Positions 1,469 through 23,055 of a DNA stretch of 34,788 nucleotides are shown one piece after another. The notes beneath the pieces are model-generated. The model ran no database searches. It was not told the origin of the DNA and worked only from the letters and a program-made list of their open reading frames with translations. A program made the translations under genes and the position numbers. Source of the DNA: Bacteroidales bacterium (GTDB taxonomy: Bacteria > Bacteroidota > Bacteroidia > Bacteroidales > UBA12170); the NCBI GenBank assembly GCA_021157585.1, contig JAGGWH010000133.1, positions 1 to 34,788 on the forward strand, given 5' to 3'. How positions within the stretch are numbered: the stretch's first letter is position 1; each line of letters opens with the position of its first letter.

Positions 1469-3148
1469 TTAATCGCTTTTTAATTTCTTATAGCGAATAC
1501 GTTCCGGTCCTTTATCGCCTAATCGTTTTTTCTTATTTTCTTCGTATTCCGAATAGCTTCCTTCAAACCAATATACCTGCGAATTGCCTTCAAAAGCTAA
1601 AATATGAGTTGCTACTCTGTCTAAAAACCATCTGTCGTGAGAAATAATAACCGCACAACCTGCAAAATTTTCCAGTCCTTCTTCAAGAGCTCTTAGCGTA
1701 TTAACATCAATATCATTAGTTGGCTCATCTAATAATAGCACATTAGCTTCTTGTTTTAAAGTAAGTGCCATATGCATTCTATTCCGCTCTCCTCCGGATA
1801 AAACGCCGGCTTTTTTACTCTGATCGGTTCCGCTAAAATTAAAACGCGAAACATATGCTCGGCTGTTCATCGATCTATTTCCTAATTGAATATTCTCGTT
1901 ACCTTCGGATATTACTTCCCAAACAGATTTTTCCAAATCAATATCTTGATGATCCTGATCTACATAGGCTATTTTAACTGTTGGTCCTACATTAAATTCT
2001 CCTTTATCTACATTATCAATCCCCATTATTAAACGAAACAAAGTCGTTTTTCCGGCTCCATTAGGTCCAATAATACCAACAATACCATTTGGAGGAAGAT
2101 GAAACTCAAGATTCTCAAAAAGTAATTTGTCGCCAAATGCTTTTGAAACACCTTTTGCTTCAATAACTTGATTTCCTAAACGAGGTCCGTTAGGTATATA
2201 TATTTCTAATTTTTCTTCTTGTTGCTTTTCATCTTGATTCATTAAGCTGTCATAAGCTTTTAAGCGAGCTTTTGACTTTGCATGTCTGGCTTTTGGTGCC
2301 ATTTTAACCCATTCTAATTCTCGCTCTAATGTTTTGCGTCTTTTACTGGCGGTTTTTTCTTCCATAGAAAGACGGTTTGTTTTTTGCTCTAACCAAGAAG
2401 AGTAATTTCCTTTCCAAGGAATACCCTCACCACGATCTAATTCCAATATCCAGCCCGCAACATTATCTAAGAAATATCTATCGTGGGTAACGGCAATTAC
2501 TGTTCCTTTATATTGTTGCAAATGCATTTCGAGCCATTGTATAGATTCAGCATCTAAATGGTTTGTGGGTTCATCAAGCAAAAGAATCTCCGGCTCCGAA
2601 AGCAGAAGGCGACATAAGGCAACCCGTCTTTTTTCTCCACCGCTTAAATTTTTAACGCTGGCTTCTGACGGAGGACAACGTAAAGCGTCCATAGCTCGCT
2701 CTAATTTATTGTCTAGTTCCCAAGCATCGTGTTGATCCAGTAAATCTGTTAATTCTCCTTGCCGATCGATGAGCTTCGTCATTTCATCATCAGACATAGG
2801 CTCTGCAAAACGATTATTTACTTCTTCATATTCTTTAAGTAGAGAAACCGTTTCGGCAACACCTTCTTCAACTACTTGTTTCACTGTTTTTTCCGGATCG
2901 AGGTAAGGCTCTTGATCCAACATACCAACATTAAAACCCGGCGAAAAAACAACATCACCTTCCGTTGGCTTCTCTTTTCCGGCAATAATATTTAGTAAGG
3001 AAGATTTTCCCGAACCGTTTAATCCGATAATGCCAATTTTAGCACCATAATAAAACGAGAGGTAAATATTTTTTAAAACCTGTTTGCTTGGACCGTACTT
3101 CTTAGAGACGCCCACCATTGAAAATATAATTTTCTTATCGTCAGCCAT
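1469..3148 (-). CDS. ettA: EttA-type ABC-F translational throttle ATPase
   Basis: A 559-residue ABC-F protein with two nucleotide-binding domains and no membrane segments. NBD1 has Walker A GLNGSGKS (42-49), Q-loop around Q79, signature LSGGE (168-172) and Walker B LLLDEP with catalytic E193. NBD2 has Walker A GPNGAGKT (361-368), signature LSGGE (450-454) and Walker B LLLDEP with E475. The linker (about 240-325), rich in Arg, Lys and Glu, is the P-site tRNA interaction motif. The opening (KKYGPSKQVLKNIYLSFYYG) and the length match EttA (about 555 residues) better than Uup, YbiT or YheS. EttA binds the ribosomal E site and gates the first peptide bond according to ATP/ADP state. All ATPase residues are present. 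It is a cytosolic, stand-alone housekeeping gene. Confidence 0.95.
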   Translation of the reverse strand: MADDKKIIFSMVGVSKKYGPSKQVLKNIYLSFYYGAKIGIIGLNGSGKSSLLNIIAGKEKPTEGDVVFSPGFNVGMLDQEPYLDPEKTVKQVVEEGVAETVSLLKEYEEVNNRFAEPMSDDEMTKLIDRQGELTDLLDQHDAWELDNKLERAMDALRCPPSEASVKNLSGGEKRRVALCRLLLSEPEILLLDEPTNHLDAESIQWLEMHLQQYKGTVIAVTHDRYFLDNVAGWILELDRGEGIPWKGNYSSWLEQKTNRLSMEEKTASKRRKTLERELEWVKMAPKARHAKSKARLKAYDSLMNQDEKQQEEKLEIYIPNGPRLGNQVIEAKGVSKAFGDKLLFENLEFHLPPNGIVGIIGPNGAGKTTLFRLIMGIDNVDKGEFNVGPTVKIAYVDQDHQDIDLEKSVWEVISEGNENIQLGNRSMNSRAYVSRFNFSGTDQSKKAGVLSGGERNRMHMALTLKQEANVLLLDEPTNDIDVNTLRALEEGLENFAGCAVIISHDRWFLDRVATHILAFEGNSQVYWFEGSYSEYEENKKKRLGDKGPERIRYKKLKSD

Positions 3149-3226
3149 AATTTAAACAACTAAATTGTTTGGTAAAACTACAAAAATCGTTTGAGTATTT
3201 TTATAAATAGATTAGTTATAAAAGCC

Positions 3227-4468
3227 TTAACTTAATGAGCGCATAGCTTCAACAGGATCGAGTTTAGAAGCTTGATAAGCAGGTATAAAACCACTTACTA
3301 AACCAATTAAAGACGAAACCGTAATTCCTAATATTACATTTCCCATTGTAAGTACCATACTAAAATCGGTGGAGGCATTAATAACTAATACTACAGCAAA
3401 CACAATTAAAAGACCAAATATTCCTCCGATAAGTGCGAGGAAGACAGCTTCAAATAAAAACTGAAATAAGATAAAATAATTCTTTGCTCCAAGAGATTTT
3501 TGAATACCGATAATATTGACTCTTTCTTTTACGGAAACAAACATAATGTTAGCAATACCAAAGCCTCCGACTAATAAAGAAAATCCACCTATAACCCATC
3601 CAATTGTACCGATAATACCAAAGAAAGCATCAAAACCTTTACTGATAACACTAGTTTCGTTAATGGCAAAATCATTCTCTTCACCGGGTTTTAATCGGTG
3701 ATATGACCGTAAGATTCCGGTTAACTCATCGCGAAGTTGTCCGTTAGTAATATTGGGTTTGGCTAAAACGGCAATAGTACCACCTCCCGAGCGACGTAGA
3801 TTTACAAAATTTCGCATATAATTAATGGGGAGAATAAGCGTTTTATCCGGTGAGTTGCCAAAAGCATCGTCGCCTTTTTTTTTGATAACTCCAATGACAT
3901 ATGTTTTATAGCCGCCAATTTTTATGTTCTTGCCAATAGGATCTGTATTAGGAAACAAATTTTCAGCTACTTCGGAACCAATAAGCGCAACACCTCTTCC
4001 GTTATTTGCTTCTAACTCAGTAAAAAAACGACCGTTGGAAATCTCTAAGTTCATAATTTTTGGATAGTCGTAAGAAACTCCTTGAACGCTAATATTTTCC
4101 ATAATATTATTTCCGTTCTTAAGGGTTTTGTTGGTTCCTGCCATAAATGAAGCCGCTTCCATTAATTCACTCTTTTTATTTATGGTATTTAAATCATCGA
4201 GATTAGGTTCGTCGCGGTTCATAATTTTCCACCACTCCAGATTTTCTTGCATCCAAGGCCATTTTTGAACAAATAATACATTGCTTCCTAAAGAATTGAT
4301 ACTGTCGCGAAGATAAATTTCCATTGAATCAAAAATAGTGAAGACAGCAATCACCGAAAAAATACCAATAGTTATACCTAATAGTGATAGAAATGTTCTT
4401 ACCTTGTTTACTACCAGCTCATTAAAGGCAAATATTAAACTTTCTCTTAATAGCTTCAGATAAATCAT
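3227..4468 (-). CDS. MacB/FtsX-type ABC transporter permease
   Basis: A 413-residue permease with the MacB/LolC topology. One N-terminal membrane helix (about 22-46, with the family-typical VRTFLSLLGITIGIFSVIA) is followed by a large periplasmic domain (about 48-280, MacB_PCD-like). Three C-terminal helices (about 285-310, 340-370 and 380-402) form the FtsX core, ending in the characteristic IPAYQASKLDPVEAMRSLS tail. Such permeases dimerise and work with a MacB/LolD-type ATPase and often a periplasmic adaptor, either to export substrates by mechanotransmission or to move lipoproteins. Neither an ATPase nor an adaptor gene is adjacent, so the partner must be elsewhere. The substrate cannot be told from the sequence. 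The ATG start gives an intact first helix. Confidence 0.88.
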   Translation of the reverse strand: MIYLKLLRESLIFAFNELVVNKVRTFLSLLGITIGIFSVIAVFTIFDSMEIYLRDSINSLGSNVLFVQKWPWMQENLEWWKIMNRDEPNLDDLNTINKKSELMEAASFMAGTNKTLKNGNNIMENISVQGVSYDYPKIMNLEISNGRFFTELEANNGRGVALIGSEVAENLFPNTDPIGKNIKIGGYKTYVIGVIKKKGDDAFGNSPDKTLILPINYMRNFVNLRRSGGGTIAVLAKPNITNGQLRDELTGILRSYHRLKPGEENDFAINETSVISKGFDAFFGIIGTIGWVIGGFSLLVGGFGIANIMFVSVKERVNIIGIQKSLGAKNYFILFQFLFEAVFLALIGGIFGLLIVFAVVLVINASTDFSMVLTMGNVILGITVSSLIGLVSGFIPAYQASKLDPVEAMRSLS

Positions 4469-4642
4469 AAAATTGGTTTTTATGGTTGACGTTAAAATCA
4501 GGTAAAGGTAACAAAATTCGCTCCGTGGATATAGAATAAATTTCAGAAAACAGACCGGTTTATTTGTAAAGTTCTCAGCGTATTAAAAAATTGTAAAAAT
4601 CAATATAATAAATACTTGTAAAATAAGGTATTGTATTTAACT

Positions 4643-4731
4643 GCAATGAACACTAAGATTCCGATAACTATCGGAACGCAATGGACGCAATATATTGTAA
4701 ATCACAATAGCAACCTTCGTGTTCCCTTTGC
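4643..4731. repeat. Decayed inverted-repeat element in the 4469-4808 gap
   Basis: The 340-base gap between the permease and the hydrolase has no credible gene. Its centre holds an element with imperfect inverted ends: GCAATGAACACTAAG at 4643-4657 against CTTCGTGTTCCCTTTGC at 4715-4731. Inside is a perfect 8-base palindrome, TTCCGATA-AC-TATCGGAA (4659-4676), and a smaller hairpin ATTGT-AAATC-ACAAT. The motif texture (ACTAAG, GGAACGCAATGGACGCAA) resembles the short cgcaaag-type repeats scattered between Bacteroidota genes (recollection, not searched). Outside the element the gap is A+T-rich with no recognised signal. Confidence 0.5.
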
Positions 4732-4808
4732 GATCCTAGCGGTAAAACAATAATTATCTAATAATCAATCCGTTTAGAAATTTAAATACACTGACTGGTT
4801 ATAAAAAA

Positions 4809-5720
4809 TCAACTTTCTATAAAATCTATTAGAGCATCGATAAGCTCAGGAGAGCGTAAGTAACCAAATGATTTATGCGGATTGGAAACACCATTCATTT
4901 GATAAGTATTATGGATTAAAGTATCAACAACACGAACACCTCGGCTATTTGGTTTAAAATCATCGGCTAATTTTTTATCAAGAGTAATATTATCTTTTAT
5001 TGCTGCAAAATTATACCATTTTCGATATACCGCTTCGGGAGTTTGAAGCTTGATATGTCCCTGATTAACTAATTTAGAAGAGTGCGCTATTTTGCTAATT
5101 ACAAAAGGAGCACCTAAAGGCGAACCCATGGTGACGAAAGTGTTAATTTTAGTTTCTTTAGCAATAAAGCTTAACACATCAAAAGCAATTATTGTCCCCA
5201 TAGAATGAGCGATTAAAAAAATTTGATCATTATGATGTTTCTTTAAAAGATCGATTAATCTTTGATTGATGCGCCTTTTTAATTCACAATCAGGACTAAG
5301 GTTATTTTCACAGTCTTCGGTAAAATATACCTCTAAATCTCTAAAATTATTGTGAATAAAATTCTTAGCTAAGAAAGGATACCTCAGCTTATAATTCTTT
5401 TTAAGAAATATTTTATAAATAAAATGCTTCAGTAATTTAACTAATTGTAAACGCACATAAAAATTTCCATTTACAGATTTCTTATTTTCAGGAGTGTAAA
5501 CCTCATCTAAAAAATAAGGACTGTTTTTATCTTTTTCATTAGGAGATAACGGTTTGTCGTAAAGTATATCAGCCCAGTATACAAGTTCAAGCAAAGGTAA
5601 TTCAATATTTTTCCCGTTATTTTTTAAGCCTTCTTTAATGGATGCTTTAGCCCAATTTTCTAATAAATTTTTAGGAGGTTTATTTCTCAAGCCATGAATT
5701 GCAATGATAACTTTCTTCAT
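4809..5720 (-). CDS. Alpha/beta hydrolase, lipase-like
   Basis: A 303-residue soluble protein with alpha/beta-hydrolase landmarks. The first strand ends in HG of VIIAIHGLRN (oxyanion region, residues 4-13), the nucleophile elbow is AHSMG (171-175, Ser173) after strand QIFLI, and a late His in NPHKSFGY fits the catalytic histidine. The sequence is rich in Lys and Asn with no signal peptide, so it is probably cytosolic. The substrate is unknown; the arrangement recalls lipase/PGAP1-like or DUF676-type esterases. The ATG at 5720 is preferred; the in-frame TTG at 5741 only adds TIIIIK. It is followed by the repeat-containing gap and preceded by the terminator at 5825-5861, so it is its own unit. 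Confidence 0.75.
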   Translation of the reverse strand: MKKVIIAIHGLRNKPPKNLLENWAKASIKEGLKNNGKNIELPLLELVYWADILYDKPLSPNEKDKNSPYFLDEVYTPENKKSVNGNFYVRLQLVKLLKHFIYKIFLKKNYKLRYPFLAKNFIHNNFRDLEVYFTEDCENNLSPDCELKRRINQRLIDLLKKHHNDQIFLIAHSMGTIIAFDVLSFIAKETKINTFVTMGSPLGAPFVISKIAHSSKLVNQGHIKLQTPEAVYRKWYNFAAIKDNITLDKKLADDFKPNSRGVRVVDTLIHNTYQMNGVSNPHKSFGYLRSPELIDALIDFIES

Positions 5721-5824
5721 TTTAATAATTATAATTGTCAAGAAGACAAATTTATCATTTAAAGTTTAACCTTTACACAGGTAGTTACTTGAGCTCGTTA
5801 AATTAATTTACGCTTGATTTTTTG

Positions 5825-5861
5825 TAAAGAGGGAGATAAAGTAACTTTATCTCCCTCTTTA
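5825..5861 (-). terminator. Perfect 18-base-arm hairpin ending the TauE-FmdE operon
   Basis: The arms TAAAGAGGGAGATAAAGT and ACTTTATCTCCCTCTTTA are exact complements separated by one base. It starts eight bases after the FmdE stop codon. The minus-strand exit is A/T-rich but not a clean U-run. It separates the FmdE operon from the downstream hydrolase. Confidence 0.75.
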
Positions 5862-5868
5862 CTTTTAA

Positions 5869-6471
5869 TTATTTTGCCGCACAATCTATGCAAACCATTT
5901 TTCCGCTTTTAACACGACCGTATTGTTCAACAACCATTTCGCCACATTCTTCGCAAACAAAACCGTCAAATGAATGCGTTTCTTTAGGCCATTCATAAGT
6001 AAAAACATCAGAAACAATCATTATTTTTTCTTCGGGAGCTCCCATAACCATTTTTACTAAAGGCTCAACAACTTCGTCAGGCACTTTTGTTGGTGCTACG
6101 CCTACCATTCTGTAATTGGTAAAGAATTCCGTTTTTTTACTGGCCAACATCGCTTCAGCTCTTGGAGTAACCCGTACAGCACGATTTGTTTTTTTATCGA
6201 TAAGAGTTAAGCCCCATTTGCCTTTGTGGCTTTTTTCGATATTTCCTTTTCCAAAAGTACAGCCTGTAATAACCTGTACACCATCGGCAAAACAAGTAGC
6301 ACAATGGTTATCGCCTAGTTCCAAAATAGCGTGAATATTACTATCGCCCGTGCGTTCTACACCTAGCTTATTTAATGCCGCTGCTCCAACTCTTAAGCCA
6401 TTTGGCATTGCTGGACATTTATGTCCGTGAAATGTTTGCCCGAATTCGAGCCATTCTTGAGGATTAATCAT
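5869..6471 (-). CDS. FmdE-domain protein with C-terminal zinc ribbon
   Basis: A 200-residue soluble protein. Residues 1-145 match the FmdE family, named after the fifth ORF of molybdenum formylmethanofuran dehydrogenase operons. It has the metal-site block FHGHKCPAMPNGLRVG (His15, His17, Cys19), then ELGDNHCATC (Cys57, Cys60) and Cys71 in the GCTFGKGN loop. The C-terminus (173-197) is a four-cysteine zinc ribbon, CEECGE...CIDC (Cys173, 176, 194, 197), of the DksA/TraR kind. FmdE proteins occur in many organisms without methanogenesis and their role is unresolved; a metal chaperone or sensor is plausible. Here it is the last gene of TauE-porin-CDF-FmdE, 11 bases after the CDF gene, which supports a metal-handling role (inference). 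No formylmethanofuran dehydrogenase genes are present. Confidence 0.88.
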   Translation of the reverse strand: MINPQEWLEFGQTFHGHKCPAMPNGLRVGAAALNKLGVERTGDSNIHAILELGDNHCATCFADGVQVITGCTFGKGNIEKSHKGKWGLTLIDKKTNRAVRVTPRAEAMLASKKTEFFTNYRMVGVAPTKVPDEVVEPLVKMVMGAPEEKIMIVSDVFTYEWPKETHSFDGFVCEECGEMVVEQYGRVKSGKMVCIDCAAK

Positions 6472-6482
6472 AAGACTTATTA

Positions 6483-7376
6483 TTATTTATTTATAATTTG
6501 TTTATTATCTGAAACCGAAAATTCCGGTTGGATAGTCGTGTGTTGAATATTAAATGGAAGTAAAGCCGCTTTTATCTTAATCAGGGTTTTTTCAAAATCG
6601 CTGATATTTATATTTTCCAAAACATCAATATGCGCTTCAAACATAATATCGTGTTCATTAATTTGCCAAATATGAACATGATGTACGTTTTTCACCTCCT
6701 TTAAATTTTCTATTGCTTTTACAACTACGTCAACATCAATATTCTCTGGGGTAAATTGCATAATAATCCGAAGTGATGATTTAAAAATAGTAAGTGATAA
6801 ATAGAGTAAATAAGCCGCTATACCTATTGAAAAAACAGCATCAATCCAATACCATTGCAAATATTTCATTACTAAACCCCCAATCAAAACCGCAATAGAA
6901 GTAAGCATATCACTAAAAAGATGCAGATAAGCCGATTTAATATTCATATTATTTTTAGCATCCTTACGGATAAATAAGACACTTAATCCGTTAACGGCAA
7001 TACTTGCTATTGCTAACCAAATTACCCAATCGGCAGCTATTTTAGTAGGATAAAAAAATCGCTGAACGCCTTCAAAAAGAATAAAAATGGCAAGCACAAT
7101 CAATGTTGACGAATTGATAAAAGCAGCAATTATCTCAGAACGTTTAAAACCATAAGTGTGACTATTTGTTGCTTCTCTTTTTGTTAGTTTATTGGCTATA
7201 TAACTAATAATTAATGATAATACATCACTAAAATTATGTGTCGCATCGCTAACTAAAGCCATACTACCCGAAATAATTCCACCAATTGCTTCGGCTAATG
7301 TTATTAGAACATTAAGCGCTATTGACCAACCTAAATTTTTACCATTAACTTCGTGGTGATGATGTTCATGTCCCAT
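6483..7376 (-). CDS. Cation diffusion facilitator, zinc-type efflux transporter
   Basis: A 297-residue CDF protein exchanging divalent cations for protons across the inner membrane. It begins with a His-rich metal-binding stretch (HEHHHH, 3-8), then six membrane helices (about 15-38, 42-62, 82-102, 115-136, 148-170, 172-190) and a cytosolic domain with the LKEVKNVHHVHIWQ block. The transport site is HxxxD in helix 2 (His47-Asp51, SDATHNFSDV) and HxxxD in helix 5 (His152-Asp156, HLFSD). The HD-HD arrangement is the zinc-selective CzcD/ZitB type rather than the DD-DD manganese type. It starts five bases after the porin stop, so the two are cotranscribed. It is the only clearly cation-directed pump in this otherwise arsenic-flavoured island. 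Confidence 0.92.
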   Translation of the reverse strand: MGHEHHHHEVNGKNLGWSIALNVLITLAEAIGGIISGSMALVSDATHNFSDVLSLIISYIANKLTKREATNSHTYGFKRSEIIAAFINSSTLIVLAIFILFEGVQRFFYPTKIAADWVIWLAIASIAVNGLSVLFIRKDAKNNMNIKSAYLHLFSDMLTSIAVLIGGLVMKYLQWYWIDAVFSIGIAAYLLYLSLTIFKSSLRIIMQFTPENIDVDVVVKAIENLKEVKNVHHVHIWQINEHDIMFEAHIDVLENINISDFEKTLIKIKAALLPFNIQHTTIQPEFSVSDNKQIINK

Positions 7377-7381
7377 AATTA

Positions 7382-8371
7382 TTATTTAAAAAATACTTGC
7401 ATTTGAATTGAAGCTATATAATTTTCTATTTCCCCTTCATTTATTTGAAAGAAATTATCGAAATAGAGTTTTATTTTATTCTTATTTATTAGGTAATTAT
7501 ACGCTAGTCGATAATAAGGCTTGTCCGTAGTTTCCTCAATTAAATCAGTATACTTTTCGTAAGAGAAAACAAATTGGTTTTTATTCACATTAAGTGTAGA
7601 TAGAAAATAAAATCCTTCGGCTTTTTCTCCTTCAAAATTGGCATTTAAATATTCTGCTTGAAGCTCAAAAAACCGCGCTTGGAAGTGCACAAAAATATTC
7701 GATCGAAAGTCGTTTCCAGTGTATAAAAACGAATCTGGTAATACTTTTGGGATTTCTAGATTTTGGGCATATCGATATTGTAAAGAATAACCAATCTGAA
7801 ACTTGTTTTGATTCAAAGGAATATTCAGGATTGTTTTATGGCTTAACATATAACCCTGATTTTGAAAGCGATATTCCTTAACTCCATAGCCATTAAAAAT
7901 TCCAAAATGTGTTTGAATACGTTTGTTTTTGGAATGTAAATTTGCTTGAATTCCGATATCTCTAACGCCCAACATTCCGCTAGGAATTAAAGCGTCTATA
8001 GCCTTGGCTCGCTCAATAGTAGATAGAGAATAATCTGACTGAAACCGTTGCAAACTATATTCCGGAACAAACTGACCAAAATCAACAGAAAACAAACCCA
8101 AAGTGTAGGCTATTTTTACGTCCTGCAAAAAGAATTTTTCTTGAGCTATGCTCGAAATAGTTGCCTGAACCTTATAAGACCAATGCTCAGAAAACTCCGG
8201 ACTTGATTTCATCCAAAGCTTTAATCGGCGTAAAGAAAAACTGTTATTATCTATGAAATTACTGGAAGCACGCAATTGAGTATAACCATTCCATTCTAAT
8301 TTAGCCAGATTCTCTTGTGAAAAAGCAGAAATTGTAAATAATAAAAATAAGAGTACGCTTAATTTCTTCAT
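7382..8371 (-). CDS. Phosphate-selective porin O/P-type outer-membrane protein
   Basis: A 329-residue outer-membrane beta-barrel. It has a signal peptide (residues 1-18, cleavage near AFSQ-EN), alternating hydrophobic strands throughout and a terminal aromatic residue pattern (IASIQMQVFFK). The N-terminal block WNGYTQLRASS...FSLRRLKLWMKS and the following YKVQATIS, FLQDVKIAYT and VDFGQFVPEYSLQR are typical of the porin O/P (PF07396-like) family of Bacteroidota. Family members let oxyanions such as phosphate through, but specificity here is not visible. It lies nine bases after TauE/SafE and five before the CDF gene, so the operon couples an outer-membrane pore with two inner-membrane transporters. 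Arsenate and phosphate resemble each other, which makes the arsenic neighbourhood suggestive. Confidence 0.82.
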   Translation of the reverse strand: MKKLSVLLFLLFTISAFSQENLAKLEWNGYTQLRASSNFIDNNSFSLRRLKLWMKSSPEFSEHWSYKVQATISSIAQEKFFLQDVKIAYTLGLFSVDFGQFVPEYSLQRFQSDYSLSTIERAKAIDALIPSGMLGVRDIGIQANLHSKNKRIQTHFGIFNGYGVKEYRFQNQGYMLSHKTILNIPLNQNKFQIGYSLQYRYAQNLEIPKVLPDSFLYTGNDFRSNIFVHFQARFFELQAEYLNANFEGEKAEGFYFLSTLNVNKNQFVFSYEKYTDLIEETTDKPYYRLAYNYLINKNKIKLYFDNFFQINEGEIENYIASIQMQVFFK

Positions 8372-8380
8372 AAGTTTTAA

Positions 8381-9142
8381 TTAGGCAATAAATGTGCTGA
8401 TGGCTTCCCAGCTTAACTTAACAGCAATCGCTATCAGAACGATGGCGTAAATTTTCTTGACCATTTTAGGTTTAGCTTTATTGCTCATAAAACGAGCACC
8501 AAATTGAGAACCAATAATTACAGCTCCAACTAAAATCAGCGTTAAGGGCCAATTCATTTCGCCTTGTGTCATATGACCCAAATAGCCAGAAAACGATGAG
8601 AAAGTTACCACGAAAGCTGTTGTTGCTGCGGCTTCTTTTGTTTTATAACCTAAGGCCATTAAAACGGGAGCAAAAATAAATCCACCTCCTATTCCCAACA
8701 TTCCACCAATAAACCCAACAGATAATCCAACTAAAATACCGATAATAATACGCTTTTTAAGCGATGATTTTTCCTCGGGCTCTTTTTTGTTCACCTGTAA
8801 AAGCATACGAATAGCAGCAAATAAAACCAAAATGGCAAAAGCCATTTTTAGATTTGACACTTCTACATATTGCGATGAATAAGCGCCAAATGGTGAAGCA
8901 ATTAAAGCCGAAACGGCCATAAAGATTCCTCCTTTCCAGTCAACCAGCTTCTTCATTCCAAATTGGATAAGCGCAAAAGAAGTGTTTAATCCATTCAATA
9001 AAAGTCCAAGGGGGAGAGCGACAGTAATAAAATCGAAACCCGCCCAGTTTAAGGCAGGAACATAAACCATACCACCTCCAAGACCTAGCATTGCAAATAA
9101 AAAGGAGGCAAATAAAATAATAATTCCAATAATAATATTCAT
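8381..9142 (-). CDS. TauE/SafE-family membrane permease
   Basis: A 253-residue integral membrane protein with about eight helices and the internal two-fold repeat of the family: MLGLGGGMVYVPAL (18-31) in the first half and MLGIGGGFIFAPVLMALGY in the second. The pairs LPLGLLLNGLNTSFALI and AAATTAFVVTFSSFSGYLGH complete the halves. TauE/SafE proteins export sulphite, sulphoacetate or other sulphur anions, or move small organic acids. It is the first gene of a four-gene operon. A dyad of the same type as in front of arsR2 lies 15-30 bases before its ATG, so expression is probably ArsR-controlled. A thio-oxyanion or arsenic-linked substrate is a guess. Confidence 0.9.
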   Translation of the reverse strand: MNIIIGIIILFASFLFAMLGLGGGMVYVPALNWAGFDFITVALPLGLLLNGLNTSFALIQFGMKKLVDWKGGIFMAVSALIASPFGAYSSQYVEVSNLKMAFAILVLFAAIRMLLQVNKKEPEEKSSLKKRIIIGILVGLSVGFIGGMLGIGGGFIFAPVLMALGYKTKEAAATTAFVVTFSSFSGYLGHMTQGEMNWPLTLILVGAVIIGSQFGARFMSNKAKPKMVKKIYAIVLIAIAVKLSWEAISTFIA

Positions 9143-15598: not shown

Positions 15599-15603
15599 AA
15601 AAA

Positions 15604-15625
15604 GCCACAGCAAATAAGCTGTGGC
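15604..15625 (-). terminator. Terminator of the six-gene envelope operon
   Basis: The stem is GCCACAGC-AAATAA-GCTGTGGC. On the minus strand it is followed directly by seven T residues. It lies 30 bases after the DUF1302-like stop codon and six after the convergent DUF2779 stop. Confidence 0.85.
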
Positions 15626-15655
15626 CGGAACAGGTTTTGAACAAAGCTGAATCTG

Positions 15656-16900
15656 TTAAAAACTGTATTTTATTTTAATGTAAGCCATGGAGTTGTCTTT
15701 ATACTGTCCAAAGCGTCCACTTTCATCGCCTACAAAAACATTTGCTCCTAATAAAATAGAAAAACTATCGTCGTAGTCGTAAGTGATTTTTGGGCGAATT
15801 AAGGCATCTTCATTACTAAGTCCTATGTAAGAGAAGAGCTCTAAATGAAGTGTTTCTCGTAGTACATCAGCATGAGCTAAAAATGTTAAGGTATTTTCGG
15901 TTTCCTGACTTAGCATTCCCGGTTCGTAATCCAGTATATACTGTTGAATAAATTGAGTGCTGAATTTTACGGATTTAATATTAAAATCGAGTCCTAAAAC
16001 ATAATGCAAATAGTCTTTTTCAACTAAAGCATCAACAGCTTGTATATCTTCAGTTTGGAAATATTTTCCATTATAATAAGCAGCTTCACCTCTAAATATC
16101 ACACCTTTTATTTGTGTGCTAAATGATCCTCCTCCAAGTGTTAAGCGGTGATATTCGGGAGTAACATTTAAAGTTGTTAAAATTGGAGATTGTGTGTTTG
16201 GATCCATTCCAAAAGTTTTATTTACGTGCATCACGGGTATATCGTCCCAAGTATAGCCTCCCATAATTTCAAAATCTACAAAAGAAGTTATTCCTGTAAA
16301 CTTGGCAAACACTTCGCTATTTTCCAGACTGGGGGTTACGTTTTTCTTACTATTATCAAAAGTTGGTTGAATAGGAAATTCGGGTTGAATATACCAAATA
16401 GAATTTGATGCTGGAGTTTCTATTGCTGTAAAAAACGGAATCCAAATAAGTTCAAAAGTATTGTTTCCGAAATAATAATCCACTTTTGTAGCATAAACAC
16501 CGGATCTGATTTCATCAAAATCAGGTAGAAGAAATTCTGTAAGGTTTAAGGGTGAAACTACATCGGTAATAAAAACGCCATCGGCTTTACCCCAAACTAC
16601 TTGTTGTTTACCAATACGGATATCGAAATTATTGAAATATAAGTCGAGATAAATCTCACGCATATTAAATTTCAAACTATCTGTATTATAAGAATAAAGC
16701 ATAGGATTGGCTTTAAAAGCTACTTTGCTTCCACGTTTCTCAAAATTCAAATTAAGTGTATTTTGTAATATTGAGAAGTCGCCACTATCAAATAAAACTC
16801 CGGTATAATTTCTGGCATATCCGGAAATATCTACATCCTGTGATTTTAGCATAGGAGTTATTAGAAGCGTTAAAATGATTAGTATGTTAATTTTCTTCAT
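15656..16900 (-). CDS. DUF1302-like outer-membrane beta-barrel
   Basis: A 414-residue outer-membrane protein with signal peptide (1-20, MKKINILIILTLLITPMLKS) and a barrel of alternating strands ending in a terminal aromatic (YIKIKYSF). Blocks typical of the DUF1302 group are visible: LNLNFEKRG, MREIYLDLYFNNFDIRIGKQQVVWGKADG (about 81-109) and ITDVVSPLNLTEFLLPDFDEIR. DUF1302 barrels often occur with RND/MMPL exporters and LolA-like or DUF1329 proteins, and are thought to be part of an envelope lipid or hydrophobic-compound route; none of that is proven here. It is the last gene of the operon, 18 bases after the OMPLA-like gene, and is followed by a strong terminator. A different porin family remains possible. 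Confidence 0.7.
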   Translation of the reverse strand: MKKINILIILTLLITPMLKSQDVDISGYARNYTGVLFDSGDFSILQNTLNLNFEKRGSKVAFKANPMLYSYNTDSLKFNMREIYLDLYFNNFDIRIGKQQVVWGKADGVFITDVVSPLNLTEFLLPDFDEIRSGVYATKVDYYFGNNTFELIWIPFFTAIETPASNSIWYIQPEFPIQPTFDNSKKNVTPSLENSEVFAKFTGITSFVDFEIMGGYTWDDIPVMHVNKTFGMDPNTQSPILTTLNVTPEYHRLTLGGGSFSTQIKGVIFRGEAAYYNGKYFQTEDIQAVDALVEKDYLHYVLGLDFNIKSVKFSTQFIQQYILDYEPGMLSQETENTLTFLAHADVLRETLHLELFSYIGLSNEDALIRPKITYDYDDSFSILLGANVFVGDESGRFGQYKDNSMAYIKIKYSF

Positions 16901-16918
16901 TTGTTATATTTTATTTTT

Positions 16919-17830
16919 TTAATTATTGAATCTAAGTATCTCTGTTACAACTCCAAAACTGATAAGAGAGAGTTGTCTGTCGAAATAAATATTATAATAA
17001 TCTCTGCCCCTAAAAATAGACACAAAAAGACCGACATCCTCTAAACCTGTAGGATAATAAGAGACCGTTAAGCTCAATTCGAGCCTTTTTTTGTCAAATG
17101 TTTTCCAATTGCTTACATCACCAAAAAGAATGGTTGATTTTCCTTTTATGGAGAATAATGCTTTGCCCTTGTTATTAGCATCACGTTTTCTGTTCAACTT
17201 AAATACTGAGAAAGAAGAATGCCAACGTAGTGTGCTAAAGAGTCCTTCCAATTCGTTTGTGGTAAAGCCCGGAGCATGATATTCGATGGATGAGCTATAA
17301 AACTGCATTGCTTTAAAGCGAGGATTATAATTGGTTTTAATAAATCCAAATTCAAGGTAGTTGGTTGCAAAATTACCGGTAATATGATTGATTTCTCCGT
17401 TTTCGAGAAAAGAATCTCCCTCTTGCCCGTTAGAATGATGAGCTATACGTCCGAAAAGATTCAAATGACTAAAGGGTGGTCGTTCTCCTAAAGCATAATA
17501 AACAGTTATTTGTGGAATATAGCTTGGTGTACGTACCGGAAAAGATTCTTCTTGATACATACGAAGAATTATTTGCGGTGTTAGTACTCCCATTAAACGA
17601 GCATTCTTACTTTTTCGGATATAAAAATTAGGAACAAAATTAGCTTCAAACCAAAGAGGATCAATATTTCCAACACCGCCTAAAATAGTAAAATAACTAT
17701 TTCCTTGGTTAACTTGAGATACTGTTGTTAAATCTATGATGCCTTTGTTTATATCAGTTTCTTGTCCTACCGCTATTTGTGCTAGCAGTAGAACAATAAA
17801 ACTAATTAGATAAACTTTTTTAAAAGCCAT
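16919..17830 (-). CDS. OMPLA-like outer-membrane phospholipase A candidate
   Basis: A 303-residue secreted beta-barrel with signal peptide (1-22). The segment NLFGRIAHHSNGQEGDSF contains HxSNG (His131, Ser133, Asn134), the active-site motif of outer-membrane phospholipase A, where His and Ser of HxSNG and a later Asn form the triad. Here Asn144 lies 11 residues after the Ser (12 in the E. coli enzyme). FVPNFYIRKSKNAR, FGFIKTNYNP and repeated Tyr-rich strands fit the 12-strand barrel. If active, it would cleave acyl chains from phospholipids in the outer leaflet. The ATG at 17830 is used; an upstream in-frame TTG at 17839 adds three residues. It lies 17 bases after the LolA-like gene. Without a search a non-enzymatic barrel cannot be excluded. 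Confidence 0.55.
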   Translation of the reverse strand: MAFKKVYLISFIVLLLAQIAVGQETDINKGIIDLTTVSQVNQGNSYFTILGGVGNIDPLWFEANFVPNFYIRKSKNARLMGVLTPQIILRMYQEESFPVRTPSYIPQITVYYALGERPPFSHLNLFGRIAHHSNGQEGDSFLENGEINHITGNFATNYLEFGFIKTNYNPRFKAMQFYSSSIEYHAPGFTTNELEGLFSTLRWHSSFSVFKLNRKRDANNKGKALFSIKGKSTILFGDVSNWKTFDKKRLELSLTVSYYPTGLEDVGLFVSIFRGRDYYNIYFDRQLSLISFGVVTEILRFNN

Positions 17831-17847
17831 TATTCCCAATTATATTT

Positions 17848-18630
17848 TTACATTCCGCGCATCATCATACGCTCGGTAAATAAAGATTCTTGTATTTTGT
17901 TTGTAATATTAATATCCCTTAAATCCATAGTTGTACGGTGGTTCTTTTGAACATTTTCCATTTCAGATAAATTTATGATTAAGAAACCATCATAGTCTTT
18001 GTACTCTTTAATATGAAGGATTTTTAAAAGGTCGCCATCTTCATCGTAGAATTCTTTTTTAAGACCAATAAAATCATTTTTAATAATCCATGTCTTGGTT
18101 TTAGAATACATATAATCTTCGTCTTTAGAAACACTTTCTACAACATAACATTCTTTGCCATCTATAGTTTCCTCGCCAATAAGTGTATGTGTATCGTCTT
18201 CTAATTTACGATCGCCTAAATCGTCGTAAGTAAAATCAGATCCCATAAAATAATCACTTTTACTATCGCTTGAAATACGTTTAGTTTTTTTAATGGCAGG
18301 AAGATAAATCCACTGGTCATCACTTTTGTTATCATCATCATAAGTCCAATTCATAAAAGAGGTGTTCTTAACATCAGCAGGAGTTAGAAAGAACATAATG
18401 CTCTTTTCTACTTTTCCAAGATCCTTTGTAAATTGTTTAATTGTACGAATGCGTGTGTTTCCGCTTTTGTTGGTTAAAGTCATTGTTAAAGTTGCAGTTT
18501 GCATAGGAGGAGTAGGTCTATTATAAACCTTTTCTATAATTTGTTTTCCGTTTAAATCTTGTGCCGATAACGAGCTGTATATGCCTAAACCAAAGATTAG
18601 GACAAGAATGGATATTTTAAATTTTTTCAT
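17848..18630 (-). CDS. Outer-membrane lipoprotein-sorting (LolA-like) protein
   Basis: A 260-residue periplasmic protein with signal peptide (1-23, SLSA-QD). The rest is beta-rich with family-typical phrases of the COG2834/LolA-like group: TATLTMTLTNKSGNTRIRTIKQF, a DDDNKSDDQWIYLPAIKKTKRISS block, SDFTYDDLGDR and YVVESVSKDEDYMYSKTKTWI. Canonical LolA carries lipoproteins across the periplasm in a hydrophobic half-barrel; this subgroup typically occurs next to MMPL exporters and is thought to ferry lipids or lipid-like molecules. It lies 8 bases after DUF2202 and 17 before the OMPLA-like gene, making it the likely periplasmic carrier of the operon. It is not the housekeeping LolA, which is shorter and lacks the DQWIYLP block. 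Confidence 0.85.
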   Translation of the reverse strand: MKKFKISILVLIFGLGIYSSLSAQDLNGKQIIEKVYNRPTPPMQTATLTMTLTNKSGNTRIRTIKQFTKDLGKVEKSIMFFLTPADVKNTSFMNWTYDDDNKSDDQWIYLPAIKKTKRISSDSKSDYFMGSDFTYDDLGDRKLEDDTHTLIGEETIDGKECYVVESVSKDEDYMYSKTKTWIIKNDFIGLKKEFYDEDGDLLKILHIKEYKDYDGFLIINLSEMENVQKNHRTTMDLRDINITNKIQESLFTERMMMRGM

Positions 18631-18638
18631 AATATTAT

Positions 18639-19244
18639 TTATTTTGAGATTATTTTTTCTAATTTTTCTTGTGAAATGTATTGTGCTTGATAATTGATGT
18701 CATATCTGTTTAGCCAACGTGTAAAAGCACGCATATGGTTCTCTGAACCTCGGAGCAAATTGGAATATACCAAAGAGATATCCTTACTATCAACATCTTC
18801 TTTTAGATATTTCTCCAGGTCGAAAATATCCACATCTTCAACGGTTGCACCAACCACAAGAGCTTGTTGTAAAGATTCGTTTCCTTGCGCAATTAAAGCA
18901 TCGTAAAGTTTCTGTAATTCAGAAGAATGAAAACTACCAATTTCCAAGTTTTTTTCATATGCTATTTCATATTTATCAAGTAAAGATGCGACATTGCTTT
19001 GATGATGATCTTCTGCTTTGGATATGTTTGAAAATATGCGAAGATCCCATTTGCTGTACAATGTTTTATAAACATCGCCGGCTAATTTTTCTTCTTCATA
19101 CATATGTAGCAAGCTTTCCTTTTCAGCTTGATTAACATCCTCTTTGGGCATGTCAACAGCTATACAATCGCTTTGTTGCGCGAATCCAATAGTTGAACTT
19201 AATAAAAGAACAGCAATAAGTACAAGATGTTTTAGATTTTTCAT
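18639..19244 (-). CDS. Secreted DUF2202 ferritin-like protein
   Basis: A 201-residue protein with signal peptide (1-22, IGFA-QQ). The mature part is all helical and matches DUF2202: LLHMYEEEKLAGDVYKTLYSKW (Glu50-52), FSNISKAEDHHQSN (Glu78, His80, His81), GSFHSSELQKLYDALIAQG, EDVDIFDLEKYL and YSNLLRGSENHMRAF (Glu/His). The paired Glu and His positions are those of a four-helix ferritin-like di-metal site. Function in the family is unknown; metal storage, peroxide handling or a structural role are all open. It starts two bases before the MMPL stop context (gap of 2), so it is translationally tied to the exporter, an unusual partner for such a protein. Confidence 0.88.
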   Translation of the reverse strand: MKNLKHLVLIAVLLLSSTIGFAQQSDCIAVDMPKEDVNQAEKESLLHMYEEEKLAGDVYKTLYSKWDLRIFSNISKAEDHHQSNVASLLDKYEIAYEKNLEIGSFHSSELQKLYDALIAQGNESLQQALVVGATVEDVDIFDLEKYLKEDVDSKDISLVYSNLLRGSENHMRAFTRWLNRYDINYQAQYISQEKLEKIISK

Positions 19245-19246
19245 TT

Positions 19247-21544
19247 TTACTTTTTCTTTTTAAGATAAACTTTTGTTTGATTCATTAAAACTAACATAAT
19301 GGTAAGTGTACCTATAAAGCTGGTAAACATATTCAAGGATACTAAAGCACCTAATTCACGGTTAGGTGGGAATACGGAAAATACTAAAACCATAAATCCT
19401 AAAATGACAACCACAGCATTAAAACTAATGGCACGACCGGAATGAGCCATAGTTTTTTGAGCAATTTCTAAACTGTTATTGCTCGTCTCAGCATTGTGCC
19501 GATATTGTTCAATAAAGTGAACGGCATAATCTATCCCTATTCCTATAGCAATACTTGAAAGCAGGGCTGTTGTTGAGTTTAGAGGGATATTTAAAAATCC
19601 CATAACACCAAATCCTATAACCGTAGTAATTAAAATAGGAACAGTACCAATCAATCCGATGGTAAATTTCTTAAACATTAACGAAAGCAGAACAATAACA
19701 ATAATGATGGAAAGGATAAGACTCATAACTTGTCCTTCGAGTATAAGATCTGTAAATACTAATCCTTTATATCCGCTTCCGGCATATTTAATATCAATAC
19801 CTAAATCGTTAAAATCTTTATTGTAAGTGTCAATTACAGCGATAGCAGAATTTATAGCTTTGGAGTTGTCGCTTTTTAGTTGAAAATTGACATTTAGTTT
19901 AGAATAATTGTAATCTACAACAGCATTTAAATTTTCCGGATCGCCTGACATTTCATAGAGCAATAAATATTGAGCAATCATATCTTGATCATCAGGAATG
20001 CTGTTGAATGCTTCATCATCGGCATTCATTACCTTATTCATTCGTTTTACATAATCAGTTAAGGTAAAGGAGTTTCCTACAACAGCTAAAGAATCAACTA
20101 AATTACTTTGCATTTTATCAACCAATTTTAATACTTGAGGGTTTTTAAAAGCATTTTCTTTTCCGTTAGCATCTAAAATTAGGTTTAAGGTGGTTGTTCC
20201 TCCAAAATGACTATTAATAAAATGATCAGTTAAAACGATATCACTGTCTTTTTCAAATTTTTCTAAAAAGCTGGAGTTAATCCATATTTTTTGCATTCCA
20301 ATAATCATCACAACAATTAAGACTGCTGTTCCGATAATAGAAACTTGTTTGTATTTTAAGATTCCGTTAGTTAACTTATCTGCTAAATGTGAACTGCTTC
20401 CTCCTTGTTTCTTTTTTGAGGCTTTTACTTTTGGAAGTCCAAAGGCTAAAATTCCGGCAGGTATGAAGACTAAGGAAAATACCATAGCCATTAAAACACC
20501 AAAAGAGGCAAATAATCCAAAGTATTTTATTGGATATACTTGTGAAGTAAGTAAAGAAACAAAACCAACAGCAGTAGTTACAGAGGTCATAATAACAGGT
20601 TTCCACATTTTAACTACCATATCACTTACAGCTTCTTTTTTTGTTGCTTGTGGGTTATGCATCAAAAATAATTGTAAATGACTGTAGAGGTGAATTCCGT
20701 CCGCTACTCCAATCGCTATAAGCATTACGGGAATCATTGTTGATACGGCATATATAGGAATATTTACCATTGCCATTAAACCGAAAGCCCAGATGGTAGA
20801 CAAAAACACTACTAACATGGTTAGTATAGTACTTTTTATGCTTCGTAAAGTGATAAATAGAACTATTGTAATTACTAATAAAACAATAGGAACCATTTTT
20901 TTCATATCGGCAGGACCAAGTAATGCCATAGTGCCTTCAATAATTGGTCGCCCTGCCACATAAATTTTTATATCATCTGTTTGATAAGAGTCTGCTAAAT
21001 CAAGAATTTCCTTATAAAATTCTTGCGAAAAAACACCATCTTCTATTTCGGCAATAACTACTGTAACGGTTTCGTCTTTAGAAACTAAACGACCGAATAC
21101 CATTTCGTTATTAAGTACATTCTCTCGAATTTTATCTAGTTTTTCTTGAGTTTTTGGAACGCGCTTGTAAAAGGCTTTAACATCCATCCCTTCCTCTGTT
21201 CCTATAATATTATCGGCAGTATATAAAGAAGTTACATCATCTTTATTAATTTGTTCAAGTTTTTGTAGTTTTCTTGTAAGTTTTTTTAAAGTATCGAGTG
21301 TTTCCGAATTGAATACACCATTTTTGTTTTCCAATGCAATAATAATTCCATCGTTAATGCCAAACCATTCTTCGGCCATATCGCTATAAACAAAAGCCGG
21401 ATGATCTTTGGGCATATATTCGTCTAGGTCTGTTTCCATGCGCGAATTTTCTTTCATCTTCATAAAGAAGACTACGGTTAGAATCAAGCTGATTCCCAGA
21501 ATTAACCAAGGTGTTTTTAATAATTTTAAAAGTATTTTTTGCAT
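19247..21544 (-). CDS. MMPL/RND-superfamily inner-membrane exporter
   Basis: A 765-residue predicted exporter (COG1033 type) with the two-fold RND layout. TM1 (about 12-28) is followed by a periplasmic loop (about 30-215) and helices about 217-385. The second half begins with a helix near 398-418, has a large loop to about 620 and five closing helices to about 757. The sterol-sensing-like segments carry the typical MIPVMLIAIGVADGIHLYSHL and SSIAIGIGIDYAVHFIEQYRH motifs, each with the conserved Gly-Asp proton-relay region. At half the size of drug RND pumps, it resembles MmpL/HpnN-type lipid movers that hand substrate to periplasmic carriers. It lies 17 bases after the TetR gene and 2 before DUF2202. 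The substrate is unknown; lipids or hydrophobic compounds are favoured by the LolA-like and OMPLA-like neighbours. Confidence 0.93.
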   Translation of the reverse strand: MQKILLKLLKTPWLILGISLILTVVFFMKMKENSRMETDLDEYMPKDHPAFVYSDMAEEWFGINDGIIIALENKNGVFNSETLDTLKKLTRKLQKLEQINKDDVTSLYTADNIIGTEEGMDVKAFYKRVPKTQEKLDKIRENVLNNEMVFGRLVSKDETVTVVIAEIEDGVFSQEFYKEILDLADSYQTDDIKIYVAGRPIIEGTMALLGPADMKKMVPIVLLVITIVLFITLRSIKSTILTMLVVFLSTIWAFGLMAMVNIPIYAVSTMIPVMLIAIGVADGIHLYSHLQLFLMHNPQATKKEAVSDMVVKMWKPVIMTSVTTAVGFVSLLTSQVYPIKYFGLFASFGVLMAMVFSLVFIPAGILAFGLPKVKASKKKQGGSSSHLADKLTNGILKYKQVSIIGTAVLIVVMIIGMQKIWINSSFLEKFEKDSDIVLTDHFINSHFGGTTTLNLILDANGKENAFKNPQVLKLVDKMQSNLVDSLAVVGNSFTLTDYVKRMNKVMNADDEAFNSIPDDQDMIAQYLLLYEMSGDPENLNAVVDYNYSKLNVNFQLKSDNSKAINSAIAVIDTYNKDFNDLGIDIKYAGSGYKGLVFTDLILEGQVMSLILSIIIVIVLLSLMFKKFTIGLIGTVPILITTVIGFGVMGFLNIPLNSTTALLSSIAIGIGIDYAVHFIEQYRHNAETSNNSLEIAQKTMAHSGRAISFNAVVVILGFMVLVFSVFPPNRELGALVSLNMFTSFIGTLTIMLVLMNQTKVYLKKKK

Positions 21545-21561
21545 GATATATAAATTAGTAA

Positions 21562-22140
21562 TTAGTGTTTCAATGCTTGAATAAGTGTTGAGAATAGGAT
21601 ATTTCCTTTTTCAACGAGATTGAAATTATGGCCGCTAAATTTCCACTGTCTAACCAATTGGCGCATAGATCCAAAAAACAGAATAGTAAACATTTCGATA
21701 TTAGCGCTTTCTGAAATTTGTTTTGCTTGTTTTAATTTTATGAGCATGCCTTTCACAATCTCCTCATTCATTTGTTGAATTTCCATCACTTTTTTAGCTA
21801 ATCGAGATTCGTTTTGAAAAATCTCTTCAGAAAAAATAACAGAAACTAAGCTTGGGTTATTTGCAAGACGATGCAATACTTGTGTATAAAAGTTTTGCAT
21901 TTTAATAAGAGGCTCGGATTTATCTTGCTCCAATATTTGTACTCTTTGCATAAGGTCTTCCTTAAACCCGTTCAAAACGGTACAAAGAATATCAAATTTG
22001 CTATCAAAATGTCTATATATTGCTGGTTCAGAAATTCCAATGGCTTTTGATATGTTCTTAATAGTTAAACCTTGTATCCCTTTTTCATCGATAATTTGTA
22101 TCGACTTTTCGATTATTTCTTCTTGTCTTTTAGATAACAT
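21562..22140 (-). CDS. TetR/AcrR-family repressor of the envelope operon
   Basis: A 192-residue regulator. The N-terminal helix-turn-helix (about 25-48) reads LTIKNISKAIGISEPAIYRHFDSKFDIL, with the hallmark AIYRHF. The C-terminal two thirds are helical and form the ligand-binding/dimerisation domain, too divergent to name a ligand. It is first in the operon, 17 bases before the MMPL exporter, so it most likely represses its own operon and responds to a molecule related to the exported substrate (inference). An imperfect dyad lies 26-92 bases upstream. The next gene upstream (ElbB) is divergent. Confidence 0.92.
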   Translation of the reverse strand: MLSKRQEEIIEKSIQIIDEKGIQGLTIKNISKAIGISEPAIYRHFDSKFDILCTVLNGFKEDLMQRVQILEQDKSEPLIKMQNFYTQVLHRLANNPSLVSVIFSEEIFQNESRLAKKVMEIQQMNEEIVKGMLIKLKQAKQISESANIEMFTILFFGSMRQLVRQWKFSGHNFNLVEKGNILFSTLIQALKH

Positions 22141-22165
22141 TATAAAAAAGTTAGTTAGTATTCGC

Positions 22166-22232
22166 TCACAAAGTAACTACATATTTTCGGACTGACCAAA
22201 TATTTAAATAAAAATATAGTAACTTATTGTGA
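22166..22232 (-). promoter_or_regulatory. Imperfect dyad upstream of the TetR operon
   Basis: TCACAAAGTAACTA (22166-22179) faces TAGTAACTTATTGTGA (22217-22232) as an imperfect inverted pair with a two-base indel. Between them is a near -7 box on the minus strand. This is a candidate operator only. Confidence 0.3.
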
Positions 22233-22404: not shown

Positions 22405-23055
22405 ATGAAAAAATTTGCTGTGGTTTTATCTGGTAGCGGTGTATTTGATGGAGCAGAAATACATGAAGCTACTTTAAGTTTATTGGCTATTGCACAAGCA
22501 GGAGCCGAATATGAAATTTTTGCACCTGATACTCCTCAACATCATGTTATAAATCATATAAGTGGTGAAGAAATGGACGAAACGCGCAATGTTCTTATTG
22601 AATCGGCACGTATTGCAAGGGGAAAAATAAAGGCTTTAACAGAATTTGATGCGTCGAATTTTGATGTTTTATTGTTTCCCGGAGGATTTGGTGCTGCAAA
22701 AAACCTGTCTTCATTAGCTTTTGACGGACCAAAATGTAGTGTTAATATAGATGTCGAAAATTCTATTAAAGCCATGCTTAGTGCAAAAAAGCCTATAGGA
22801 GCTTTATGTATTGCTCCGGCAGTTGTTGCTAGAGTTATAGAAGGTGTAAAAGTAACTATAGGACAAGATAAAGATACCGCTAATGCCATTGAGGCTATGG
22901 GTGGAATACATATAAATACCAATCATGGCGATGTTATTGAAGATGCTGTTTACAAAGTATTTACAACTCCTTGTTATATGCTCGATGCCAGTATAATAGA
23001 TATTTATAATGGTGCCAATAATGTAGTAAATGCAATTATGGAAAGTATAAAATAA
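22405..23055 (+). CDS. elbB: ElbB-type glyoxalase, DJ-1/PfpI superfamily
   Basis: A 216-residue cytosolic protein matching ElbB (ES1 family; 217 residues in E. coli). The start KKFAVVLSGSGVFDGAEIHEA is the family signature (Glu19 near the pocket). The nucleophile elbow is GALCIAPAV with Cys135, and FPGGFGAAKNLSSLAFDG is the conserved loop. The name comes from an effect on isoprenoid synthesis; the E. coli protein has weak glyoxalase activity towards glyoxal. The family resembles glutamine amidotransferases but here forms no operon. It is monocistronic, with its own promoter, and shares a bidirectional terminator with the convergent DUF4270 gene. Confidence 0.93.
   Translation: MKKFAVVLSGSGVFDGAEIHEATLSLLAIAQAGAEYEIFAPDTPQHHVINHISGEEMDETRNVLIESARIARGKIKALTEFDASNFDVLLFPGGFGAAKNLSSLAFDGPKCSVNIDVENSIKAMLSAKKPIGALCIAPAVVARVIEGVKVTIGQDKDTANAIEAMGGIHINTNHGDVIEDAVYKVFTTPCYMLDASIIDIYNGANNVVNAIMESIK

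Follow-up and report, generated by a model that had tools for sequence, protein, structure and literature searches.

Outside Proteobacteria, little is understood of how the periplasm is crossed by phospholipids and other hydrophobic molecules. The subject of this analysis is a six-gene operon at positions 15656-22140 of a 34,788-nucleotide stretch of DNA (the window; contig JAGGWH010000133.1) from a Bacteroidales bacterium of the lineage UBA12170, and its closest described counterparts are exporters of hydrophobic compounds and a gene set of Porphyromonas gingivalis. The monoterpene efflux cassette AmeABCD of Castellaniella defragrans likewise unites an HAE3/MMPL permease, a DUF1329/LolA-superfamily protein and a DUF1302 protein (PMC6394551). 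The hopanoid transporter HpnN is also an HAE3/MMPL permease, and according to the same text it functions with no periplasmic or outer-membrane protein dedicated to it (PMC6394551). Iron depletion induces the P. gingivalis genes PG1175-PG1181 (ABC, LolA-like, MMPL and TetR) 13- to 136-fold (PMC10434189), and among genes with lowered expression in excess hemin, TetR, LolA-like, hypothetical and MMPL genes rank first (PMC10470040); strong induction of the TetR-MMPL-LolA-like genes by iron or heme shortage also appears in PMC13227078, PMC10101095 and PMC12119571. A LolA-like protein of this species, LolA3, has a crystal structure with a hydrophobic groove, lacks both the LolA arginine and the LolB leucine, and interacts only weakly with LolB, and a separate function was suggested for it (PMC13103446). 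The available texts of PMC13103446 and PMC11885536 assign LolA3 no function or partner. Within one literature collection, a search on MMPL, LolA and DUF1302 led to AmeABCD and to the transcript studies of P. gingivalis, and to no other account of an operon of the window's type.

Composition of the operon and its relation to described systems

All six genes of the window operon lie on the minus strand. In order of transcription they encode a TetR regulator (21562-22140; TetR_N, 43.2 bits), a 765-aa MMPL (HAE3-type) RND permease (19247-21544; PF03176, 136.3 bits), a DUF2202 ferritin-like protein (18639-19244; PF09968, 160.8 bits), a LolA-like periplasmic carrier of the LolA3 kind (17848-18630; PF17131, 212.7 bits), an OMPLA-like outer-membrane barrel with an HHSNGQ motif (16919-17830; named by its fold match to OMPLA) and a DUF1302 outer-membrane barrel (15656-16900; PF06980, 55.3 bits against a cut-off of 23.2). 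The intergenic gaps of 17, 2, 8, 17 and 18 bases take the ATG at 17830 as the OMPLA-like start, where the listing of open reading frames (ORFs) gave an upstream TTG at 17839. A domain search of the six proteins placed TetR_N, MMPL, DUF2202, LolA_like and DUF1302 above their Pfam cut-offs. Thus the five corresponding names given in an earlier note on this DNA were upheld, as was its account of six closely spaced same-strand genes followed by a terminator.

Relative to AmeABCD, the window operon has no AmeC (a YCF48/COG4447-type protein, with none among the six genes) and adds the TetR, OMPLA-like and DUF2202 genes. Its carrier is a 260-aa PF17131 protein, whereas that of AmeABCD is a 451-aa DUF1329 protein (PMC6394551). 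The window carrier also matches DUF1329 (PF07044, 42.6 bits against a cut-off of 23.1). The permease scored best against the NCBIfam HAE3 model TIGR00921 (226 bits, below its cut-off of 351.9) and reached 101 bits with the HpnN model (cut-off 751.85); its nearest solved structures are those of HpnN.

The solved protein closest to the carrier is P. gingivalis LolA3 (PGN0947; 9TP6, E=3.5e-61, 45% identity). Relatives of LolA3 were found at E<=1e-40 in 72 of 393 genomes of the order, the source genome included, and in the best 20 of these 72 an MMPL gene stood in the same cluster in every case and a DUF1302 gene in 19, the contig ending in the twentieth. In three of the 20 clusters a pair of ABC genes separates MMPL from the carrier gene. 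A distant branch of the carriers thereby retains the partners seen in the window, and the conserved neighbourhood of LolA3 names a candidate exporter and a candidate outer-membrane partner for it. Resemblance to the P. gingivalis type, in which TetR, MMPL and LolA-like genes also stand together, has limits: the MMPL proteins of the fetched relatives are 21-28% identical to that of the window, some clusters carry the extra ABC genes, and the operator described below is absent.

Given the gene content, conserved order, operator and folds observed here, we consider the chances about evenly balanced that the operon is a TetR-switched trans-envelope route, leading from the inner to the outer membrane, for a lipid or lipid-like amphiphile. 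The transport steps and their direction are our interpretation of these components. TetR, bound to an operator before its own start codon, would keep the single transcript low until lifted by a lipid-derived ligand, for which long-chain acyl-CoA is the best guess. The MMPL pump, driven by the proton gradient, would then extract the molecule from the inner membrane, and the LolA3-type carrier would ferry it through the periplasm in its hydrophobic groove to the DUF1302 barrel, the putative outer-membrane acceptor or exit. Where present, in about half of operons, the OMPLA-like barrel would cleave outer-membrane phospholipid when lipid balance is disturbed. The DUF2202 protein would be a ferritin-like, di-metal accessory of the periplasm that stands outside this path and probably guards against stress from metals or oxidants.

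A conserved core and a shared operator

Scanning genome contigs with the MMPL protein gave 135 relatives, of which the best 80 (63-77% identical) were kept. Most are labelled Bacteroidota; others are labelled Chlorobiota, Ignavibacteria, Neomarinimicrobiota/Marinimicrobia, Cloacimonadota, Electryonea or Aminicenantes, and these labels may err because nearly all are metagenome bins. Because genes in the relatives come from a simple longest-ORF script, their starts are approximate; the script missed the LolA-like gene in two loci (L184 and L196), where tblastn recovered it. A TetR gene lay within 2 kb in 49 of the 53 loci with 1.5 kb before MMPL, and a LolA-like gene was present in 58 of the 59 with at least 1.5 kb after it. 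Among the 34 loci with at least 6 kb after MMPL, all had LolA-like and DUF1302 genes, 18 had an OMPLA-like gene and two had DUF2202. Order and strand of the core TetR - MMPL - LolA-like - DUF1302 were kept in 46 of the 47 loci holding all four genes, a recurrence beyond chance. The exact six-gene order described in the earlier note was not kept in relatives, and of the neighbourhood MMPL + LolA-like + DUF2202 that it suggested searching for, the first two members proved conserved, with DUF2202 in 3 of the 80. The OMPLA-like gene is an accessory of the operon, not part of the core; where a LolA-like gene was also seen, it stood between that gene and DUF1302 in 20 of 26 loci. L105, from the cultivated Plebeiobacterium sediminum, carries the four core genes together with an OMPLA-like gene. 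Further recurrent neighbours encode cupin, DUF2147 and calcineurin-type phosphoesterase proteins (clusters of 18, 17 and 10 genes). Distribution is patchy even within the same bacterial order, where an MMPL protein of at least 50% identity occurs in 13 of the 59 other genomes sampled, and a tree of MMPL proteins of at least 740 aa (75 rows) may be compatible with transfer between phyla.

Comparison of the upstream regions of relatives revealed a 20-bp palindrome with the consensus GTTAGTNAATANTNACTAAC. In the window it takes the form GTGAGCGAATACTAACTAAC (22150-22169, minus strand), 9 bp before the TetR start codon and matching 15 of the 17 specified positions. This is the only copy in the window, with none before MMPL, which begins 17 bp after TetR; one switch should therefore govern all six genes. 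Upstream regions of 68 TetR and 74 MMPL genes from the 80 loci were scanned, the remainder lacking a match or falling short of 120 bp. The operator was found at 13 or more of 17 positions within 120 bp in 65 of the TetR and 65 of the MMPL regions, counts that are in-sample because the consensus was built from those same regions. Outside the consensus-building set are the LolA-like and DUF1302 upstreams, with 0 of 67 and 1 of 56 matches (dinucleotide shuffles gave ~1.5%), as well as the source-genome scan and the lipid and pump genes described below. At the stricter threshold of 14 of 17, 126 of the 138 sites in the 80 loci are at TetR or MMPL. A first operator seed, GGTCAGTC, was dropped, being present in the window only among the 68 upstreams. 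Scanning entire loci at a low threshold gave little information (78 of 81 real against 61 of 80 shuffled loci), and the position-limited scan took its place. Abutting the operator is a predicted promoter-like element (22169-22200, minus strand), TTTG - 20 bp - TTACTTTG, read from the sequence by comparison with the Bacteroidota -33/-7 consensus.

The regulator itself is conserved unevenly. Mean identity to the window TetR is 71% in the DNA-binding part and 29% in the ligand part (67 of 72 proteins aligned). Its C-terminal domain passes the cut-offs of two families, the YsiA-like TetR_C_4 (28.5 against 21) and the MAATS-type TetR_C_2 (23.5 against 22). It thus shares the TetR_C_4 domain with the acyl-CoA-responsive FadR/YsiA of Bacillus subtilis, but reaches 60.7 bits with the FadR model, below the cut-off of 200. 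The layout of the window operator also looks similar to that of the B. subtilis consensus.

Genes behind the operator and the nature of the substrate

Elsewhere in the source genome the operator pattern occurs at five further places, and the reversed pattern at none. One copy stands 174 bp before an operon of the outer-membrane efflux protein (OEP)-HlyD-AcrB type. Another, with two mismatches, precedes a thioredoxin-ApbE-DUF4266-DUF3570 operon (L228, site 9424; L266, 1715-4685; L numbers denote loci and C numbers contigs of the source genome), probably a flavin-transfer redox set in the same regulon. A third, with two mismatches, precedes an acyltransferase gene, and a fourth, with one, lies at 1512 between two divergent genes on contig C14 (L229). 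The same contig encodes, at 3738-4316, a TetR paralogue 40% identical to that of the window with a very similar DNA-reading region, and the two may share targets. The remaining site (C27) overlaps an ORF start and was set aside.

Sites with at most one mismatch were present in 42 of 198 genomes, the source included; the reversed control also matched in some genomes. Twenty operator flanks of relatives were chosen by hand. In four genomes (L270, L280, L076 and L082) the operator, at 14-17 of 17 positions, precedes a CDP-alcohol phosphatidyltransferase gene, and two of these four sites stand directly after DUF1302. The contig of L280 ends inside this first gene, and L283 is the same DNA as L082 and was counted once. 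The genes headed by the operator include myo-inositol-phosphate synthase in L270 and L082; the presence of PgpA was verified for L270 and L076. L270 comes from a relative of the same genus, whose sole MMPL match is 23% identical; its MlaE, MlaD and ABC ATPase genes adjoin the operator-headed inositol-phospholipid genes (2113-6562). Two genomes carry the operator before a MaoC dehydratase (L262 and L264). Other sites, in L267, L271 and L277, precede genes without a lipid link, among them TonB-receptor-like genes named by eye (L267 and L271). The operator also lies before TetR genes heading OEP-HlyD-AcrB-type clusters (L265, L273, L274, L279 and L281) and over the first codons of an OEP (TolC-type) gene in L273, L274 and L279; the families were confirmed for L228 and L273 only. 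Through the shared operator, an otherwise anonymous operon becomes part of a regulon that also includes lipid and pump genes, which narrows the range of substrates.

Features that favour an endogenous lipid are the lipid genes sharing the operator, the presence of an OMPLA-like enzyme, the match of TetR to a YsiA-like domain and the carrier's fold. Of the path from inner to outer membrane under TetR control that the earlier note had put forward, the conserved TetR-linked set of membrane, periplasmic and outer-membrane proteins and the shared operator bear out the architecture; the lipid substrate fits only part of the regulon. Several observations weigh against the lipid route. Against the NCBIfam models of SlmA, FadR and the acrEF regulator, TetR scores almost alike and in each case under the cut-off, the second C-domain match is of the drug-repressor type, and the poor conservation of the ligand domain makes a single common ligand doubtful. 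Operators before efflux-pump clusters or their TetR genes fit defence against toxicants. At 12 phosphatidyltransferase loci of greater divergence (at most 55% identity) no operator was found, the best reaching 11 of 17, and the source genome has no match to the CDP-alcohol phosphatidyltransferase at E<=1e-25. Furthermore, deletion of lolA3 in Flavobacterium johnsoniae left gliding and amylase secretion unaffected (PMC11885536).

The chief rival, to which we assign a limited but real likelihood, is toxicant efflux: an AmeABCD-like pump would expel foreign hydrophobic compounds such as terpenes, aromatics or detergents, sensed by TetR in the manner of drug-pump repressors. AmeD, AmeB and AmeA are the same three kinds of protein, and without ameABCD the bacterium tolerates monoterpenes less well (PMC6394551). 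Defence against hydrophobic compounds is also favoured by the pumps behind the same operator, both as operons and as clusters headed by TetR, and by the variable ligand domain with its match to the MAATS repressor C-domain. Against efflux stand the absence of AmeC from the six genes, the operators before lipid-synthesis genes, and the frequency of the OMPLA-like enzyme in the operon. The lipid route and efflux may both hold if membrane damage is what the system responds to.

A more specific form of the lipid route, which we advance tentatively and think rather unlikely to hold as a whole, sees in the cassette the route by which phospholipid travels, at the expense of the proton gradient, between the inner and outer membranes of the FCB group. 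MMPL would extract phospholipid or lysophospholipid, the LolA3-type carrier would shuttle it, DUF1302 would receive it and the OMPLA-like enzyme would trim the outer leaflet. A FadR-like TetR with its 20-bp operator, retained from Bacteroidota to Cloacimonadota, would couple the route to inositol-phospholipid synthesis and membrane-stress pumps, and P. gingivalis LolA3 would be the carrier of a sister system.

A role in iron or heme handling, with the system moving heme, a siderophore-like or an iron-stress-related molecule and DUF2202 handling iron, appears improbable. The iron and hemin responses of PG1175-PG1181 (PMC10434189, PMC10470040) and the conserved E/H metal-site pattern of DUF2202 speak for it. 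However, the operator was found at 14 of 17 or better in none of 20 P. gingivalis-type (LolA3-relative) loci, so that regulation differs, and 77 of the 80 loci are without DUF2202. PGN0947, which may be the same gene as PG1179, probably belongs to the P. gingivalis TetR-MMPL-LolA-like operon. Slightly less probable still is lipoprotein sorting, in which the LolA-like protein would carry lipoproteins and MMPL replace LolCDE: the fold family and a second LolA-like gene of the source genome beside LolD-like and LolC/E-like ABC genes accord with it, and the weak binding of LolB by a LolA3 without LolA arginine and LolB leucine (PMC13103446), the lack of a LolB family match among the six genes and the absence from them of a LolCDE partner, the partner gene being the MMPL permease, argue against it. 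This second LolA-like gene lies on contig C143 (L118, 4292-10139) with a TetR gene and a gene for a 379-aa protein without family match; both its ABC genes score below the Lol model cut-offs, and the arrangement represents a further kind of exporter associated with this carrier family.

Accessory proteins and neighbouring features

The name OMPLA-like, also proposed in the earlier note, was settled by fold. The window protein scored 17.7 bits against PF02253, below the cut-off of 27, and 9 of 25 family members matched at E<=0.01 (best 7.4e-6). The family profile found no solved structure at E<=1, and hhalign against Escherichia coli PldA left the motif unaligned (probability 2.1). In a fold search with the AlphaFold model (pLDDT 79.5), by contrast, OMPLA entries took Foldseek ranks 1-8, with E. 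coli and Salmonella OMPLA ahead of the other structures listed, and VIA-align scored OMPLA at Z 19.2, with an rmsd of 3.1 across 220 residues, followed by another protein at 14.8. All 25 family members carry HHSNGQ and a later TN (alignments were restricted to lengths of 280-320 aa, which covers 24 of the 27 loci where a match occurred), whereas E. coli has HDSNGR; HxSNG is thus shared with PldA along with the barrel fold. The window protein is 13-14% identical to PldA, and its TN asparagine lies 24 residues after the serine against 12 in E. coli, that is, 12 residues further on. In the E. coli enzyme the catalytic residues are the histidine, serine and asparagine. The DUF1302 model (pLDDT 87.4; 44 of 46 full-length proteins aligned) is a large barrel whose fold search gave no specific match, returning generic porins, OccAB and AlgE.

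DUF2202 was rejected as a core component, since a profile search found it in 3 of the 80 loci at three different positions. Counting the window, it stands beside the operon in five cases (with L072, L075, L084 and L202), at differing positions, suggesting that this region has acquired a stress protein more than once. From 40 matches in 247 genomes, estimated at 3.5 Mb each (~865 Mb in total), 0.045 would be expected in the 80 loci, which span 0.97 Mb (P ~1.5e-5), so that DUF2202, though rare there, is commoner than chance predicts. Matches were present in 36 genomes, and among 20 DUF2202 neighbourhoods fetched L202 was the only one with operon genes. Elsewhere DUF2202 is often near CpxP-like heavy-metal-resistance genes and anti-sigma-like genes. 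It follows CpxP/Spy-like metal-resistance-type genes in L211, L214, L217 and L218, with the CpxP-like neighbours above the Pfam cut-off in the first two and below it in the last two; L216 gave no match. This setting hints at a role of the family in envelope or metal stress. The fold is known from a solved relative, MJ0754 (E=2.4e-48), and E51, E52, E78, H81, E136, D139 and H170 are invariant in 30 of 30 sequences; these acidic and histidine residues probably form a di-metal site. The N-terminus resembles a signal peptide by eye. A search of the literature collection gave no match for DUF2202 or MJ0754. A second copy in the source genome, on contig C105 (L120, ~8122-8491), is apparently truncated, matching positions 91-159 only. 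In L084, positions 3786-3884, near the contig end, repeat part of the locus's own MMPL gene exactly (99/99), as either an assembly end or a tandem duplication.

Downstream of DUF1302 lies an intrinsic terminator-like hairpin with nine pairs and a T tail (15603-15626, minus strand). It is unremarkable by itself, because shuffles yield 4.5 terminator-like sites where the 9 kb scanned has two. On the other side, an ElbB gene (22405-23055; 297.6 bits against a cut-off of 180) diverges from TetR; its start is 236 bp from the operator, to which it may or may not respond. Among the relatives, NorB-type nitric oxide reductase genes lie near TetR loci in L274 (5460-7700) and L136 (326-2602), and in L136 a VIT1 family transporter gene adjoins the operon.

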